From a virus: 20,056 nucleotides of DNA. Where the stretch lies: positions 1 through 20,056 of IMG/VR virus record IMGVR_UViG_3300042879_003360; one strand, given 5' to 3'. The notes beneath the pieces were generated by a model, which saw nothing but the letters and a program-made list of their open reading frames with translations, was not told where the DNA came from and did no database searches. Made by a program: the position numbers and the translations under genes. This document shows positions 12,982 to 19,657 of the stretch, piece after piece (within the stretch, counting starts at the first letter, position 1; each line of letters opens with the position of its first letter).

Positions 12982-13001
12982 CCGGCCCGAGGACGGGCCG
13001 G
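12982..13001 (-). other. Intercistronic hairpin CCGGCCCG-AGGA-CGGGCCGG
   Basis: A perfect eight-base-pair stem with a four-base loop in the 56-base gap between the 72-residue and 29-residue genes. Very stable, with no T-run downstream on the minus strand, so it is more likely an mRNA-stability or partial attenuation element than a terminator. Confidence 0.55.
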
Positions 13002-13013
13002 GGTCGGGGTCAG

Positions 13014-13232
13014 TCAGCGATCAGACCAAAACAGCTCCCACGCCAAGCTCGGGCGCTGCACTTCAATATATCGGCCACGCTCGCGGCTGTAACCGTCACA
13101 CAGCGCAAGCGCCATCCCTGCCTCGCGCTCTGCACGCGCGGCGCTCTGAGCCTGCAATACCCGCAGAACATCGTCTCCGTACAAAGTTACGCCAGCATCC
13201 TTACGCTGGGTCGGGGTCTTCGTCGTCGTCAT
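13014..13232 (-). CDS. Hypothetical phage protein, 72 aa, first gene of the short leftward operon
   Basis: ATG 13232 has AGGAGT about nine bases upstream and lies about 90 bases after the predicted transcription start of the promoter at 13328-13355. N-terminal MTTTKTPTQRKDAGVTLYGDDVLRVLQAQSAARAEREAGMALALCDGYSRERGRYIEVQ; it ends AWELFWSDR. Mostly helical and charged. Not recognised. Confidence 0.72.
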   Translation of the reverse strand: MTTTKTPTQRKDAGVTLYGDDVLRVLQAQSAARAEREAGMALALCDGYSRERGRYIEVQRPSLAWELFWSDR

Positions 13233-13327
13233 CGGGGTCTACTCCTGTCAGTGGCCAGGCTGTCGGCACTCTGTCGGCGCCGGTCCGCCCGGGGGAGGCA
13301 GCACGCCCTTCGCGCTGCCAGAACCGC

Positions 13328-13355
13328 AGTCTAGCACAGTCTGGGAGCGATGCAA
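13328..13355 (-). promoter_or_regulatory. Leftward promoter of the short operon, extended -10
   Basis: On the minus strand: TTGCAT (-35, 13355-13350), a 16-base spacer, then TAGACT (-10, 13333-13328) preceded by TGC, an extended -10. Transcription would begin near 13321, giving a leader of about 90 bases before the first gene. It lies inside the spurious 86-codon frame at 13201-13461. Confidence 0.65.
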
Positions 13356-13623
13356 GCACTTTTTCGCAGAGATAACGCGGGCCACGTTCGCGCGCGCTGA
13401 GATATTTACGAGACACAGGGCCATAACGCCTCACGCGGCGTCTATCGTCGCTTTCTGCCATCAGACTGACGGAGTCTGCGTTTTGTGGTAAAAACGTTCG
13501 GGGGCTCTCCCCGACCGGTCAGACCGTTCAGAAGCTGTGGCAGCGTGTTTTTCCCTATGGGTGGTAGTGGTGGTAGTGCTTGCTATTTGGGGGTAAGAGG
13601 ACGGTAATTAGGGGTGCAATGTT

Positions 13624-13646
13624 GTGGCAATTGCCACCACTATACA
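13624..13646 (+). promoter_or_regulatory. Perfect 14-bp palindrome abutting a TATACA -10-like box
   Basis: GTGGCAATTGCCAC (13624-13637) is a perfect dyad; TATACA (13641-13646) starts four bases later, and no good -35 is present. This placement, with a dyad where the -35 should be, is what an activator-dependent or repressed promoter can look like. Half-sites GTGGCAG (13537) and TGCCAC (13651, 13687) recur around it. Function inferred. Confidence 0.4.
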
Positions 13647-14119
13647 CAACTGCCACGGAAGCGCGCTTTCGCAACGTTTTCCAGACTGCCACGAGTGACA
13701 CACGCAGTCCGCGAGGGGTCGGAAGCTGCCGCTGCGACGCTCGCGCAGGCGTAACGCGACGCGATTAACACGCGCCGGAGGATCGCTAGTCTGCGCTGCG
13801 CCGAGCGCTGAGACTGCGGTAGATCACGACCAGGACGAGCCGAACCTGATGCCGGCATGGCGCCGCGGGCGCGCCGCTTGGCGGGCAGCGTGAAACTTTG
13901 TTACGTAACTGAAGCGGCACGCCGGGACCTGCGGCAGCGGCTCGCCCGGGCCAGGAGCTGGGCGCCCGAACCGTCAGTGTGCTGATGATCAGTGTGCGGA
14001 GGGGGGGGAGTTGGGTGCGGCGGAGACCCCCCGGCCAGGGCCCGCGCTAGGCGCCAAAGTGTATGGAGCCCCCGCCCAAAATTTTTTTCCCGAGCCCCAC
14101 ACCATTCCCGCAACACATG

Positions 14120-14132
14120 TAATATCTCGCCC
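14120..14132 (+). promoter_or_regulatory. -10-like box immediately before the small terminase start
   Basis: TAATAT (14120-14125) ends seven bases before ATG 14133. No Shine-Dalgarno precedes the ATG, so a transcript starting here would be leaderless. No convincing -35 is seen 17 bases upstream, so it would need an activator. Confidence 0.35.
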
Positions 14133-14738
14133 ATGTTCCGAGACCTCCCCCTAGCGCCGAGAGAGCTGAAGGCCACGCCTGACGTGTTGGAGCGCATATA
14201 CCAGGCGTCGAAGCTGGGATTGCGCGGCGACAGTTTGGCGTTAAGGGCTTCGCTGCTGCCGGCAGAGTTTGCGCGGCTGAAGCTGATGGACCCGATGGCG
14301 GAGATGGCGGAGTTGAAGGGCCGGGCTGATGCTGAGGGCGACCTGGCGGTCGTGCTGATGGATGCGGCGCAGGCTGGGGACGCGAAGGTGGCGTTGGAGG
14401 TGTTGAAGCACCGGCACGACTGGGTGGCGAAGCAGAGTGTGCAGGTGGACGTGAATTCGCAGATCAGTGTGGTGGCGGCGCTGGAGGCTGCGAACGGGCG
14501 GTTGCAGCGTGGGCTGGCGGTGGAGGTGGAGGATGCGATACCCGTGGAAAGAATAGGCGCCGCCGTTCCGGTGGTGTTAGCTGCCGGTGAACGGACTGCG
14601 GCAGTAACGGCGGCGCCGCCCCCGTCGGAGCGACGCGCTGGTAAGATAGCCGCGCCGGCTCAGGAAGGCGGTATTGCGCCCGCTGGGTTTGCGCCGAAGG
14701 CGAAGGAGTACGAGTATGCCGAACGCTCTGATGTTTAA
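14133..14738 (+). CDS. Small terminase subunit candidate (201 aa)
   Basis: Start ATG 14133: the first Met from which the sequence looks like protein of this module. N-terminal DVLERIYQASKLGLRGDSLALRASLLPAEFARL is a helix-turn-helix of the kind seen in small terminase proteins that recognise the packaging site. GRADAEGDLAVVLMDAAQAGDAKVALEVLKHRHDWV follows, matching the central oligomerisation region of several phage small terminases ('GDAKAA...L...W'). The last 70 residues are Ala/Pro-rich. It stands at the head of the packaging module, two genes before the large terminase. No ribosome site is visible. The assignment rests on layout and position; it could also be another DNA-binding packaging factor. 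Confidence 0.7.
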   Translation: MFRDLPLAPRELKATPDVLERIYQASKLGLRGDSLALRASLLPAEFARLKLMDPMAEMAELKGRADAEGDLAVVLMDAAQAGDAKVALEVLKHRHDWVAKQSVQVDVNSQISVVAALEAANGRLQRGLAVEVEDAIPVERIGAAVPVVLAAGERTAAVTAAPPPSERRAGKIAAPAQEGGIAPAGFAPKAKEYEYAERSDV

Positions 14739-15357
14739 TGGTGCCGCAGGCGTTGGTGCCGCAGGCGCCGAGGATATGGCCGCTGCCCCGATGCCGCGTT
14801 ACCGCTGGACGGGCCCGATGCCCGACAGGCCGGTGGTGAACGGGCGGTCGGTAGTGACGGCGGAGGAGCTGGCGGATTTTCGGCGGCAATTTGGGGCCGA
14901 TAAGACGCTGCGGGATTTGCTGAATGCTGACAAGGCGCTGGTGCGGCGCGGAACGCCGTCGGTGATGGACCCCCGGGCGCGGGGGATGCAGGGTGCGAAC
15001 GTAGCGCCGGGAATGCCTGGGGTAATCCCGGGTGGTGGCGCGGGGCCGGCGGCGCAGGGTCGGATTCCTGGCGAGGTTGAGCGCAATGTGATGAATGCGC
15101 TGATGGCGTTGGGCCCGATAATGGGCGGGGTGCCGCGAACGGCGAATGCGATGGGTATGGTCGGCCGTCGGCCGGGGCCGGGCGATTGGAGGAGTAATCC
15201 GCCGCCTGGCGCGGATCCGGCTCGGTGGAGTGAGATTGTTCGGCAGATTGAACAGGCGTATCCGATGACGGCGCCGAGGCCTGCGGAGGTGTATTTGCAG
15301 GGCGCGCCGACGATGATGCGGGCGGCGCCGCGGCCGTTGGCTGGGGTAACGCGCTGA
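14716..15357 (+). CDS. Hypothetical Gly/Ala/Pro-rich protein between the terminase genes (213 aa)
   Basis: ATG 14716 has AAGGAG seven bases upstream and overlaps the end of the preceding gene by 23 bases. The sequence alternates a Gly/Ala-rich start (MFNGAAGVGAAGAEDMAAAP), a helical charged part (TAEELADFRRQFGADKTLRDLLNADKALVRR), a Gly/Met/Pro-rich low-complexity centre, and an end with PARWSEIVRQIEQAYPMTAPRPAEVYL. No known domain recognised. Its place between small and large terminase suggests a packaging or head-assembly accessory; this is position only. Confidence 0.72.
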   Translation: MPNALMFNGAAGVGAAGAEDMAAAPMPRYRWTGPMPDRPVVNGRSVVTAEELADFRRQFGADKTLRDLLNADKALVRRGTPSVMDPRARGMQGANVAPGMPGVIPGGGAGPAAQGRIPGEVERNVMNALMALGPIMGGVPRTANAMGMVGRRPGPGDWRSNPPPGADPARWSEIVRQIEQAYPMTAPRPAEVYLQGAPTMMRAAPRPLAGVTR

Positions 15358-16883
15358 TGCAGAAACCGATATACACCGCGGGTGAGGAGCAGGCGCTGAT
15401 GACGCGCCTGTGGGAGCCGCGTATTCGGGACGACCCCGAGGCGTTTGTGTTGCTGGCGTTTCCGTGGGGGCAGCCGAACACGCCGTTGGCGGCGTTTGAC
15501 GGGCCGCGGCGGTGGCAGCGACGGGTGTTGCGGATGATGAGAGATCACATCGCGGCGAACCGTGGGCAGTTGGAGATGGACACCCTGCGGGCGGCTGTTT
15601 CCAGCGGGCGCGGGATCGGGAAGTCGGCGCTGGTGAGCTGGTTGATTTTGTGGATGCTCACGACGCGGATCGGCAGCACGGTGATGGTCAGCGCGAACAG
15701 TGAAGCGCAGCTGCGAGGCGTGACGTGGGGTGAGCTCACAAAATGGTCGGCGATGCTGATCAATTCGCACTGGTGGGAAATTAGCGCGACGAAGCTCATG
15801 CCGGCGCAGTGGCTCACGCAGATCGTTGAGCGGGATTTGAAGAAGGGCACCCGTTACTGGGCGGCCGAGGGCCGGCTGTGGAGCGAGGAAAACCCGGACG
15901 CGTATGCCGGCACTCACAACATGGACGGGATGATGCTGATATTCGACGAGGCGTCGGGTATCCCGGATCCGATCTGGGCGGTGGGCGCGGGGTTTTTCAC
16001 GGAGAACATTCTGGACAGGTATTGGCTGGCGTTCTCGAACCCGCGGCGCAATGAAGGGTATTTTTTTGAGTGTTTCCACGCCAAGCGGGACTTCTGGAAG
16101 AACATCCAGATTGATGCCCGCAGCGTTGAGGGCACGGACCAGCGCGTTTACCAGCAGATCATTGACGAGTACGGCGAGGACTCGCGCGAGGCGCGGGTTG
16201 AGGTGTACGGGGAGTTTCCTGCTGCCGGCGAAGACCAGTTTATTACGCCGCGACTGGTGGACGACGCGGTCAAGCGGCCGGCGTACAAGGATCCCACGGC
16301 GCCGATTGTGTTGGGCGTGGACCCCGCGCGCAGTGGCGCGGACTCGACCGTGATCGTGGCCCGTCAGGGGCGTGATCTGGTGGCCATTCGACGGTATCGT
16401 GGCGACGACACGATGACCGTGGTGGGGCACGTCATCGAAGCCATTGAGGAGTTTCAGCCTGCGCTGACGGTGATTGACGAGGGCGGGCTGGGATACGGGA
16501 TTTTGGACCGCCTGACGGAGCAGCGGTACAAGGTGCGCGGCGTGAATTTTGGCTGGAAGGCCAAGGCCAGCGTGATGTGGGGCAACAAGCGCGCCGAACT
16601 GTGGGGCGCGCTGCGCGACTGGCTGAAATCGGCTCATGTGCCGGCAGACAGGCAGTTGAAGGCCGACCTGACGGGGCCGAAAACGAAGCCCAACAGCAGC
16701 GGCACGGTGTATTTGGAGTCGAAGAAAGACATGAAGGCCCGTGGCCTGGCGTCGCCGGACGCTGCCGACGCGCTGGCATGCACATTTGCTTTCCCTTTGG
16801 CCCACAGGGAGTACAATGCCAAGGAGCAGCGCCGCTCGATCAGTGATCGCGGCGTCGTTTCGGCGGGTTGGATGGCTCACTGA
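15357..16883 (+). CDS. terL: Large terminase subunit (508 aa)
   Basis: The packaging motor and nuclease. Residues 83-90 SGRGIGKS are the Walker A of the ATPase; MLIFDEAS at 193-200 is Walker B with the catalytic Glu; SANSEAQ near 112-118 and AFSNP at about 225-229 fit the following motifs. The C-terminal nuclease has the RNase H-like fold: LGVDPARSGADST (Asp 322), LTVIDEGGLGYGILDRL, and SPDAADALACTF near the end, giving three acidic active-site positions. The length is normal for a complete large terminase. The ATG overlaps the previous TGA (TGATG). It threads DNA into the prohead through the portal encoded 0.6 kb downstream. Confidence 0.96.
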   Translation: MQKPIYTAGEEQALMTRLWEPRIRDDPEAFVLLAFPWGQPNTPLAAFDGPRRWQRRVLRMMRDHIAANRGQLEMDTLRAAVSSGRGIGKSALVSWLILWMLTTRIGSTVMVSANSEAQLRGVTWGELTKWSAMLINSHWWEISATKLMPAQWLTQIVERDLKKGTRYWAAEGRLWSEENPDAYAGTHNMDGMMLIFDEASGIPDPIWAVGAGFFTENILDRYWLAFSNPRRNEGYFFECFHAKRDFWKNIQIDARSVEGTDQRVYQQIIDEYGEDSREARVEVYGEFPAAGEDQFITPRLVDDAVKRPAYKDPTAPIVLGVDPARSGADSTVIVARQGRDLVAIRRYRGDDTMTVVGHVIEAIEEFQPALTVIDEGGLGYGILDRLTEQRYKVRGVNFGWKAKASVMWGNKRAELWGALRDWLKSAHVPADRQLKADLTGPKTKPNSSGTVYLESKKDMKARGLASPDAADALACTFAFPLAHREYNAKEQRRSISDRGVVSAGWMAH

Positions 16884-17330: not shown

Positions 17331-17480
17331 ATGCCTCTGGTGAAATCAGCGTCTTCTGCCGCGTTTCGCAAAAACGTGAAGGCTGAAATGCAGGCCGGCA
17401 AGCCCCAGAAACAGGCGTTGGCCGTGGCGTACAGTGTCAAACGCGAGGCGCAAAAGCCCGCGTCTGCGAAGAAGAAGTAA
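17331..17480 (+). CDS. Small basic phage protein, PQKQALAVAYSVKR type (49 aa)
   Basis: ATG 17331 is one base after the preceding TGA, and the stop overlaps the portal ATG. The sequence MPLVKSASSAAFRKNVKAEM, then QAGKPQKQALAVAYSVKREAQ is a widely found short phage protein ('KPQKQALAIAYSVKRxA'). Basic, predicted helical. Third of the small basic set; its translation would be coupled to that of the portal. Confidence 0.87.
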   Translation: MPLVKSASSAAFRKNVKAEMQAGKPQKQALAVAYSVKREAQKPASAKKK

Positions 17481-19657
17481 TGGCTTCGTACAACCGCACC
17501 TCCGACCCCACCGGCATTGCCGGGGCCCGCGTGGCTGCTGCTGGCGGCAAGCAGGACGCGGATTTTCTGGCCGAGATGCGTCAGCGCATGACAATGGCGC
17601 AGGCTGCGGTGTCGAATTCTCGACAAAACGAGCTGGACGATTTGAAGTTCTATGCCGGCAGTTCGGACAATTCGTGGCAGTGGCCGCAGGACGTGCTGGC
17701 TACCCGCGGCAGCGTGCAGGGCCAGACGATCAATGCCAGGCCGTGCCTGACGATCAACAAGCTGCCGCAGCACGTCAAGTCGGTCACCAACGACCAGCGC
17801 CAGAACCGCCCCAGCGGCAAGATCATTCCTGCGGACGACAAGGCCGATCCGGAAGTCGCGGAGATTTTCGACGGCATCGTTCGGCACATCGAGTACATGT
17901 CCGACGCGGACGTCGCTTACGACACCGCCTGCGAGAACCAGGTGACGTTTGGCGAGGGCTACATCCGCATCCTGACGGAGTATTGCGACCCGGACACGTT
18001 TGACCAGGACATCCGCATCGGGCGCATCCGCAATTCGTTCAGCGTGTACATGGACCCGCTGATTCAAGATCCGTGCGGTGCTGATGCGCAGTTCTGTTTC
18101 ATCACGCAGGATCTGACGAAGAAAGAATACGAGCGCCTGTACCCCAAGGCCGCGCCGGTTTCGACTCTGTTGTCGTACAGCGTGGGCGACTCGACGTCGG
18201 GGTACTGGCTGAACGAGAACATGGTGCGGATTGCGGAGTACTTCTACATTGAGAAGGAACTCAAGACGCTGCACCTGTACCCCGGTGGCATGACGGCGTT
18301 TGAAGACTCTCCAGAGGACCGGCAGATGCGTGCTATGGGCCTAATGCCCATGCGCAGCCGGCAGGCCGAGCAGCAGCGCGTGAAGTGGTGCAAGACCAAC
18401 GGGTACGAAATCCTCGAGGAGCGCGACTGGGCCGGCAAGTGGATCCCGGTGGTGCGCGTTGTCGGCAACGAGTTTGAGGTGGACGGCGAGATCCACATCA
18501 GCGGCTTGGTCAGGAATGCCAAGGACGCCCAGCGGATGTACAACTACTGGGTGTCGCAGGAAGCCGAGATGCTGGCGCTGGCGCCCAAAGCCCCGTTCAT
18601 TGGGTACGGCGGCCAGTTTGAGGGCTATGAGCACCAGTGGAAGACCGCCAACACGACCAACTGGCCGTATCTGGAGGTGAACCCTGACGCTACTGACGGC
18701 GCTGGCAACTCGTTCCCGCTGCCGCAGCGTGCGCAGCCGCCGATGGCCCAGCAGGGCCTGATCGCTGCCAAGATGGGCGCCTCGGACGATCTAAAGGCCA
18801 CCACGGGGCAGTACGACAGCAGCCTGGGCGCGACGAGCAACGAGCGCAGCGGCCGAGCCATTCTGGCCCGCGAGAAGCAGTCCGACACCGGCACTTATCA
18901 CTACGTGGACAACCTGGCCCGTGCGGTGCGCTACGTCACGCGGCAGATCGTGGATCTGATCCCGAAGATCTACGACACGCAACGCATCGCCCGGATCATC
19001 GGCGTGGACGGCCAGACCAAGATGGCGCGTTTGGACCCGATGCAGCCCGAGCCGGTGCGTGAGGTCAAAGACCAGTCGGGCGTAGTCATCGCCAAGATCT
19101 ACAACCCCGGCGTCGGCAAGTACGACGTCGTGGTCACCACGGGTCCGTCGTACCTGACCAAGCGGCAAGAGGCGATGGACGCTATGTCGCAGATCCTGCA
19201 GGGCTCGCCGCAGTTGTGGGCCGTGGCCGGCGACCTGTTCGTCAAGAACATGGACTGGCCGGGCGCCGACGAGCTTGCTGAGCGCCTGCGCAAGACCATT
19301 GACCCGAAGCTGCTGCAGGATCAGGAAGACCCGGCGCTGCAGGCGGCGAACCAGCAGATCCAAGTGCTGACGCAGGAACTGCAGGGCATGATGCAGATGC
19401 TCCAACGCGTGAACCAGTCGATGGAAGCGCAGGAGTTGAAGATCAAGGAGTACGACTCCGAGACGAAGCGCCTGAGCGTGGTGCAGGCCGGCATGAGGCC
19501 CGAGCAGATCCAGGAAATGGTCATTCAGACCATGCGCGATATCATGGCGGTGGGTGATCTGCAGGCTGCGCAGCGCCAGTTTATGCCGATGGCCCCGGCT
19601 TCGCCTGGCGGCATGCTGGGTGCGCCGCAAACGATGCCCGAAGGAGCCCCGGTATGA
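17480..19657 (+). CDS. Portal protein, P22 type (725 aa)
   Basis: Forms the dodecameric ring at one vertex of the head through which DNA enters and leaves. VTNDQRQNRPSGK near residues 103-115, DVAYDTACENQVTFGEGYIRI near 140-160, SVYMDPLIQDPCGADAQFCF near 188-207, and TTGQYDSSLGATSNERSGRAI near 440-460 match the P22-like portal family; the length of 725 equals that of P22 gp1. Residues about 610-665 (LQAANQQIQVLTQEL..MQMLQRVNQSMEAQELKIKEYD) form a long coiled coil, the barrel of P22 portals. The Met-rich C-terminus ends in low complexity. Its ATG overlaps the previous stop (TAATG). A P22-type portal goes with a short-tailed (podovirus) particle. Confidence 0.94.
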   Translation: MASYNRTSDPTGIAGARVAAAGGKQDADFLAEMRQRMTMAQAAVSNSRQNELDDLKFYAGSSDNSWQWPQDVLATRGSVQGQTINARPCLTINKLPQHVKSVTNDQRQNRPSGKIIPADDKADPEVAEIFDGIVRHIEYMSDADVAYDTACENQVTFGEGYIRILTEYCDPDTFDQDIRIGRIRNSFSVYMDPLIQDPCGADAQFCFITQDLTKKEYERLYPKAAPVSTLLSYSVGDSTSGYWLNENMVRIAEYFYIEKELKTLHLYPGGMTAFEDSPEDRQMRAMGLMPMRSRQAEQQRVKWCKTNGYEILEERDWAGKWIPVVRVVGNEFEVDGEIHISGLVRNAKDAQRMYNYWVSQEAEMLALAPKAPFIGYGGQFEGYEHQWKTANTTNWPYLEVNPDATDGAGNSFPLPQRAQPPMAQQGLIAAKMGASDDLKATTGQYDSSLGATSNERSGRAILAREKQSDTGTYHYVDNLARAVRYVTRQIVDLIPKIYDTQRIARIIGVDGQTKMARLDPMQPEPVREVKDQSGVVIAKIYNPGVGKYDVVVTTGPSYLTKRQEAMDAMSQILQGSPQLWAVAGDLFVKNMDWPGADELAERLRKTIDPKLLQDQEDPALQAANQQIQVLTQELQGMMQMLQRVNQSMEAQELKIKEYDSETKRLSVVQAGMRPEQIQEMVIQTMRDIMAVGDLQAAQRQFMPMAPASPGGMLGAPQTMPEGAPV

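Follow-up and report, generated by a model that had tools for sequence, protein, structure and literature searches.

Why does a podovirus keep a long stretch without genes directly in front of its terminase genes? We addressed this question in a 20-kb IMG/VR viral contig of a freshwater-type (lake) podovirus, analysed as a single window of 20,056 nt. Positions 13462-14132 (671 bases) form a gap without a supported gene, which separates a leftward unit from the rightward late operon. The gap is bounded on the left by the start of the minus-strand ORF 13201-13461 and on the right by the ATG of terS at 14133 on the plus strand. An earlier note had described this block as gene-free, palindrome-rich and kept for a reason, and had proposed a late control region, a packaging site, a replication origin or a non-coding RNA; the absence of a supported gene was borne out. 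Packaging sites are hard to find from sequence and are known for few phages, and a 2022 review (PMC9611059) judged DNA recognition by small terminases to be both unclear and a matter of controversy. Here we consider it moderately probable that the right third of the gap is a pac-type packaging recognition site combined with a leaderless late promoter.

Genomic setting of the gap

The coordinates of the features discussed below are collected in Table 1. TerL of the window is 71% identical to that of phage DSL-LC05 and 67% identical to that of MW202483, and TerL and the portal protein are of the epsilon15/P22 kind. TerS gave no match in Pfam or PHROG. Its N-terminal region is predicted to be helical with a helix-turn-helix-like stretch, and a fold search against the PDB returned weak matches to the Sf6 and PaP3 TerS proteins, none of which was significant. 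BLASTN with positions 13000-16500 matched terL only, and the closest matches in the cellular genome collection were phage-like contigs, most of them binned with Rhodoferax, beta- and gammaproteobacteria. The minus-strand ORF at the left boundary encodes 86 aa and has an acidic tail, DDDDEDPDPA, at its end; a short stretch of low-complexity DNA inside it (~13209-13252) was matched in more distant relatives too.

Table 1. Features in and around the gap upstream of terS; positions are those of the window.
Feature	Position	Strand	Basis or remark
Left two thirds of the gap, intergenic	13462..13950	.	~70-97% invariant per 30 nt in most places among five close relatives
Terminator-like stem-loop followed by a T-rich tail, directly before the start of the leftward ORF	13498..13514	-	Terminator scan
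15-bp imperfect-palindrome repeat in two copies (TCAGTGTGCTGATGA / TCAGTGTGCGGAGGG)	13974..14003	+	2-4 copies in relatives
Run of eight G adjoining the element	14001..14008	+	G-tracts recur here in relatives
Conserved 65-nt element, candidate pac-type terminase recognition site	14023..14087	+	Profile HMM match, E 2e-15
-10 hexamer TAATAT, predicted late promoter	14120..14125	+	7 nt before the terS ATG
TerS (201 aa)	14133..14738	+	Position and neighbours; predicted leaderless
Terminase large subunit (TerL), context	15357..16883	+	
P22-like portal protein, context	17480..19657	+	PF16510, E 5e-175

Coding capacity and RNA structure of the gap

Short ORFs (38-77 aa) are present in the gap, and several of them are kept in near relatives, as might be expected if the block coded for a small protein or for a structured regulatory RNA. 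However, codon position 2 varied at least as much as position 3 among five close relatives in all of these ORFs except one. This exceptional frame, of 77 aa on the minus strand, had 11/3/14 changes by codon position, a weak coding-type bias; it overlaps the conserved element described below, and its full length is not preserved in every close relative. A conserved coding frame in relatives, which the earlier note had named as grounds for abandoning its view, was not found. With regard to RNA, 13462-14132 contained no tRNA and matched no Rfam family at the gathering threshold, and RNAalifold of the 65-nt element gave 2 pairs at -0.6 kcal/mol with neither a compensatory change nor a consensus structure. 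The element thus lacked the conserved structure with covariation that would mark a structured non-coding RNA, and the suggestion of a non-coding RNA was not upheld. A small protein or structured RNA is, in our judgement, exceedingly improbable.

A 65-nt element is conserved upstream of terS

Relatives with near-identical terminases matched the whole block at ~87-91% or better, and more distant relatives (TerS roughly 60-80% identical) matched only from about 13949-14000 onward. The comparison that the earlier note had proposed therefore revealed strong conservation in the right third of the block, not the lack of any conservation that would have spoken against it. The claim that the block is kept for a reason is strongly borne out at about 13972-14132, and for the remainder only among close relatives.

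We defined an element of about 65 nt by reading the 240-nt stretches before terS in some 70 loci and then iterating profile HMM searches. Across the family, the element combines a tract of G or C residues with AGGGCC, a middle part that varies, a box resembling GGTCAAAAACGGAGGGG, and AAATTTTTT. The copy in the window is made up of G/C tracts, AGGGCC, a AAAGTGTATGGAGCCCCCGC box, and a AAAATTTTTT tract, and includes AAATTTTTTT. In 168 of the 177 related loci in which a TerS start is present, the element was located upstream of TerS in unchanged orientation; of the nine loci without it, five or more start at or beyond its position. There is one copy in the window and one in each of nine of ten near-full-length genomes, with none found in the tenth. 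Weak, correctly placed versions were detected in DSL-LC05 and MW202483 (E 0.0065 and 0.001, respectively).

Three diverged element patterns, derived from known copies so that the result concerns specificity and not independent discovery, were compared with 2.9 million viral contigs and matched 117. The pattern was situated just upstream of the window's TerS family in 113 of these (42/45, 36/37, and 35/35 contigs per pattern, each with the match followed closely by a same-strand ORF of the TerS family), and one of the four exceptional contigs is cut off 99 nt past the motif start. Searches of epsilon15-like prophages whose TerL is 36-40% identical, and of a small sample of more distant phages with a P22 portal, did not detect the element, and BLASTN against 50,697 phage records gave no meaningful match. 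Loci having the element without this TerS, or the reverse, were too few to separate the two.

The gap between the element and the terS start ranged from about 18 to 520 nt across loci, and some loci carry additional genes there: HNH-type (HNH_3) homing-endonuclease ORFs in L065, L216, L248, and L161 (MW202483), a Mom-like ORF in L028, and a PqqA peptide gene in L091, L099, L105, and L106. The inserted HNH and Mom-like genes each have their own -10-N6/7-ATG start. Because the gap varies and genes lie within it, the element looks like a separate DNA element. Its distance to the -10 hexamer described below also varied, between about 6 and more than 100 nt with no fixed phase, which argues against a fixed promoter box. 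The PqqA peptide has 23 aa (MWT[TK]PAATEMRFGFEVTMYVMNK; PF08042, E 6e-11 and 3e-10) and is encoded at 4379-4450 in L091 (L262 identical), 3278-3349 in L099, 975-1046 in L105, and 209-280 in L106. Lake Baikal has yielded one PqqA-encoding virus, with methylotrophs as its presumed hosts (PMC7678222).

Repeats and G-tracts adjoin the element

The G-run (8 G) and direct repeats that had been reported for the block are present. One direct-repeat pair, TCAGTGTGCTGA / TCAGTGTGCGGA at 13974 and 13989 with a spacing of 15, is genuine, because relatives have 2-4 copies in the same place at multiples of 15 bp. The unit TCAGTGTGCTGATGA occurs at 13974, and the second copy at 13989 differs by 3 mismatches; arrays in relatives reach four copies, with spacings of 15, 30, 45, or 60. 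These arrays are lineage-specific, with 15-bp units in the window and a 20-bp palindrome, GTTAGTGAGTGCTCACTAAC, elsewhere, and they are replaced wholesale between lineages while the element is unchanged. The palindrome richness claimed for the block was not convincingly confirmed: at arm lengths of 5-6 nt, perfect inverted repeats were only ~1.8-2 times as frequent as expected from dinucleotide shuffles (p 0.03 and 0.06), and those with arms of at least 7 nt were not enriched over shuffles in the block.

In closely similar elements, the box GAGGGGTC (L214, L238) is exchanged for its exact reverse complement GACCCCTC (L175, L050). The box is positioned about 40-120 nt upstream of terS, and the element sequence preceding it is identical. 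The G4 tract is found as GAGGGGTC or GACCCCTC, and under the tentative shape-based proposal given below, the strand that bears the G residues would seem not to matter.

A -10 hexamer recurs at the terS start codon

The best -10-like hexamer was placed at -12 or -13 from the terS ATG in 69 of 96 non-redundant leaders. TANNNT occurred at that offset in at least 21 of 34 TerS lineages, compared with 3.5% at other offsets and 2 of 82 TerL starts, and as the lineages are related, a binomial p is only indicative. Several remaining lineages have TATAAC or TATAAA in the same place; in the L205, L228, and L238 group, the best -10 lies at -32/-33 and would leave the mRNA with a short leader. The -35 region is poor in the window and good in some relatives (TTGACA in L105), and a sigma-70 consensus scan of the block found no promoter.

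The Shine-Dalgarno score of terS (2/6) was the poorest among the 22 ORF starts tested in the window. Its start codon is well supported, because the TerS N-terminus is conserved directly after it. The arrangement TAATAT-N7-ATG thus places the -10 hexamer for transcription to start at the start codon, without a Shine-Dalgarno sequence, and from it we infer that the late mRNA of terS is leaderless. Recurrence of the hexamer 6-7 nt from the terS ATG across lineages supports the late control region among the options of the earlier note. Such a predicted leaderless start of a late operon across lineages is an unusual and testable arrangement; the abstracts of candidate papers contained nothing on point about leaderless terS mRNA.

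The left two thirds of the gap are conserved among close relatives only

The segment 13462-13950 had no match in more distant relatives, and the signals for starting the leftward unit probably lie in it. The terminator-like stem-loop listed in Table 1 for the minus strand could conceivably be an attenuator, a weak possibility given that 2 terminator-like sites were found in the block compared with 0.9 expected in shuffles. The other stem-loop of this type is at 13462-13478 on the plus strand, near the leftward ORF start.

Proposed packaging role of the element and its alternatives

A pac site is expected in or next to terS, where the element was located in the loci and at the distances given above. 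Its place, orientation, rarity in the genome, and tie to the window's TerS family, seen as co-occurrence, argue for the pac-type reading, as do the P22/epsilon15-type TerL and portal, the scattered contig ends, and the precedent of SPP1. The ends of 20 near-full-length contigs were scattered, including inside terS and terL, and none of the 20 ended in the element. Direct end overlaps of 22-127 nt were present in ten of them, although circular assembly alone does not prove permutation. Contig breaks in the 200 nt before terS were ~3 times as frequent as average and scattered, at positions that differ between contigs; this excess may reflect imprecise pac cutting or simple assembly trouble. Among the options raised earlier, a packaging site is the best-supported reading of the conserved element, its packaging role being a prediction.

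If this is correct, the right third of the gap would serve as a compact control region for packaging and late transcription. The segment 14023-14087, with its G-tracts, AT-tract, and adjacent palindromic repeats, would be the cis-acting terminase site. The TerS/TerL terminase would recognize viral concatemers at the element, probably in part via DNA shape, and make its first cut there. The promoter, with its -10 hexamer at -13, would initiate late-operon transcription at the A of the terS ATG or at a neighbouring base, and terS would be translated from a leaderless mRNA. In this scheme we infer four steps: TerS binding, the first cut, headful packaging, and the transcription start. A broader proposal, that the whole family shares a packaging signal read largely by DNA shape, with an operon that opens with a conserved leaderless terS mRNA, is put forward only tentatively, and we would not expect it to hold in full.

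Part of the evidence would also fit a transcriptional role, in which a transcription factor of phage or host origin binds the element and controls the late promoter, the palindromic repeats act as operators, and packaging is not involved. The element adjoins the late promoter, the repeat arrays resemble operators, and the -10-N6/7-ATG of the inserted HNH-type and Mom-like genes near the element means that promoter and element stay neighbours. However, the variable, unphased distance to the -10, the wholesale swapping of repeats between lineages around a constant element, and the presence of at most one copy per genome checked, though other operons exist, make this role rather unlikely. A cos site, where terminase would make one exact cut to yield cohesive ends, would likewise be expected immediately upstream of terS, as in lambda, and would agree with the G/C-rich core and the enrichment of contig breaks within 200 nt upstream of terS. 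Fixed genome ends, judged indirectly from assemblies, were not observed: 0/20 contigs end in the element, the ten that close on themselves do so at scattered places, including inside terS and terL, and the breaks near terS vary from contig to contig. We regard a cos site as improbable.

A replication origin, with the repeats as initiator-binding iterons, would agree with the regular 15-bp spacing of the arrays beside an AT-tract and with the switch in transcription direction at the block. The extremes of GC skew, however, were at differing places relative to the element in complete genomes, not consistently at it, and the element is tied to terS rather than to the primase/helicase gene. The origin proposed in the earlier note did not find support, and we consider it very improbable. 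The pac-type reading thus remains the one we prefer: the element is a widely conserved cis element that likely functions in packaging and is likely joined to a leaderless late promoter.

Comparison with known systems

The cI mRNA of lambda transcribed from PRM is leaderless; its ATG lacks a Shine-Dalgarno sequence and follows a -10 hexamer at a distance of 6-7 nt. The terS start shares these features, but its leaderless mRNA is a predicted one, belongs to the first gene of a late packaging operon, and recurs across lineages. Lambda cos (cosN/cosB) is located just upstream of terS with repeats nearby, like the element, but fixed ends were not seen in our full-length contigs.

The window resembles P22 in its portal type and in having headful-type relatives; the pac of P22 is a 22-bp sequence inside the terS gene (PMC9611059), whereas the element is outside terS. 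In SPP1, DNA preceding terS forms part of the pac region, which may be chosen for its bendability (PMC4737164). SPP1/SF6 pac (pacL, pacC, pacR) is similar in lying before and around the terS start and in having repeats; it includes a TerS-protected stretch, and its DNA was proposed to be selected by conformation (PMC4737164). It differs in sequence and belongs to another phage group, and no counterpart of the strongly conserved 65-nt element is known. DSL-LC05, of the proposed family Luchaoviridae (PMC10611076), has the same gene order as the window and a recognizable element before terS, but its TerS was undetected by tblastn with the window TerS; a text search of its description returned no mention of packaging (PMC10611076).

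The 65-nt element spans a large, mostly uncultured group of freshwater podoviruses and offers many natural variants for questions of TerS-DNA recognition. It likely belongs among the terminase recognition sites, with an unusual predicted promoter attached to it.
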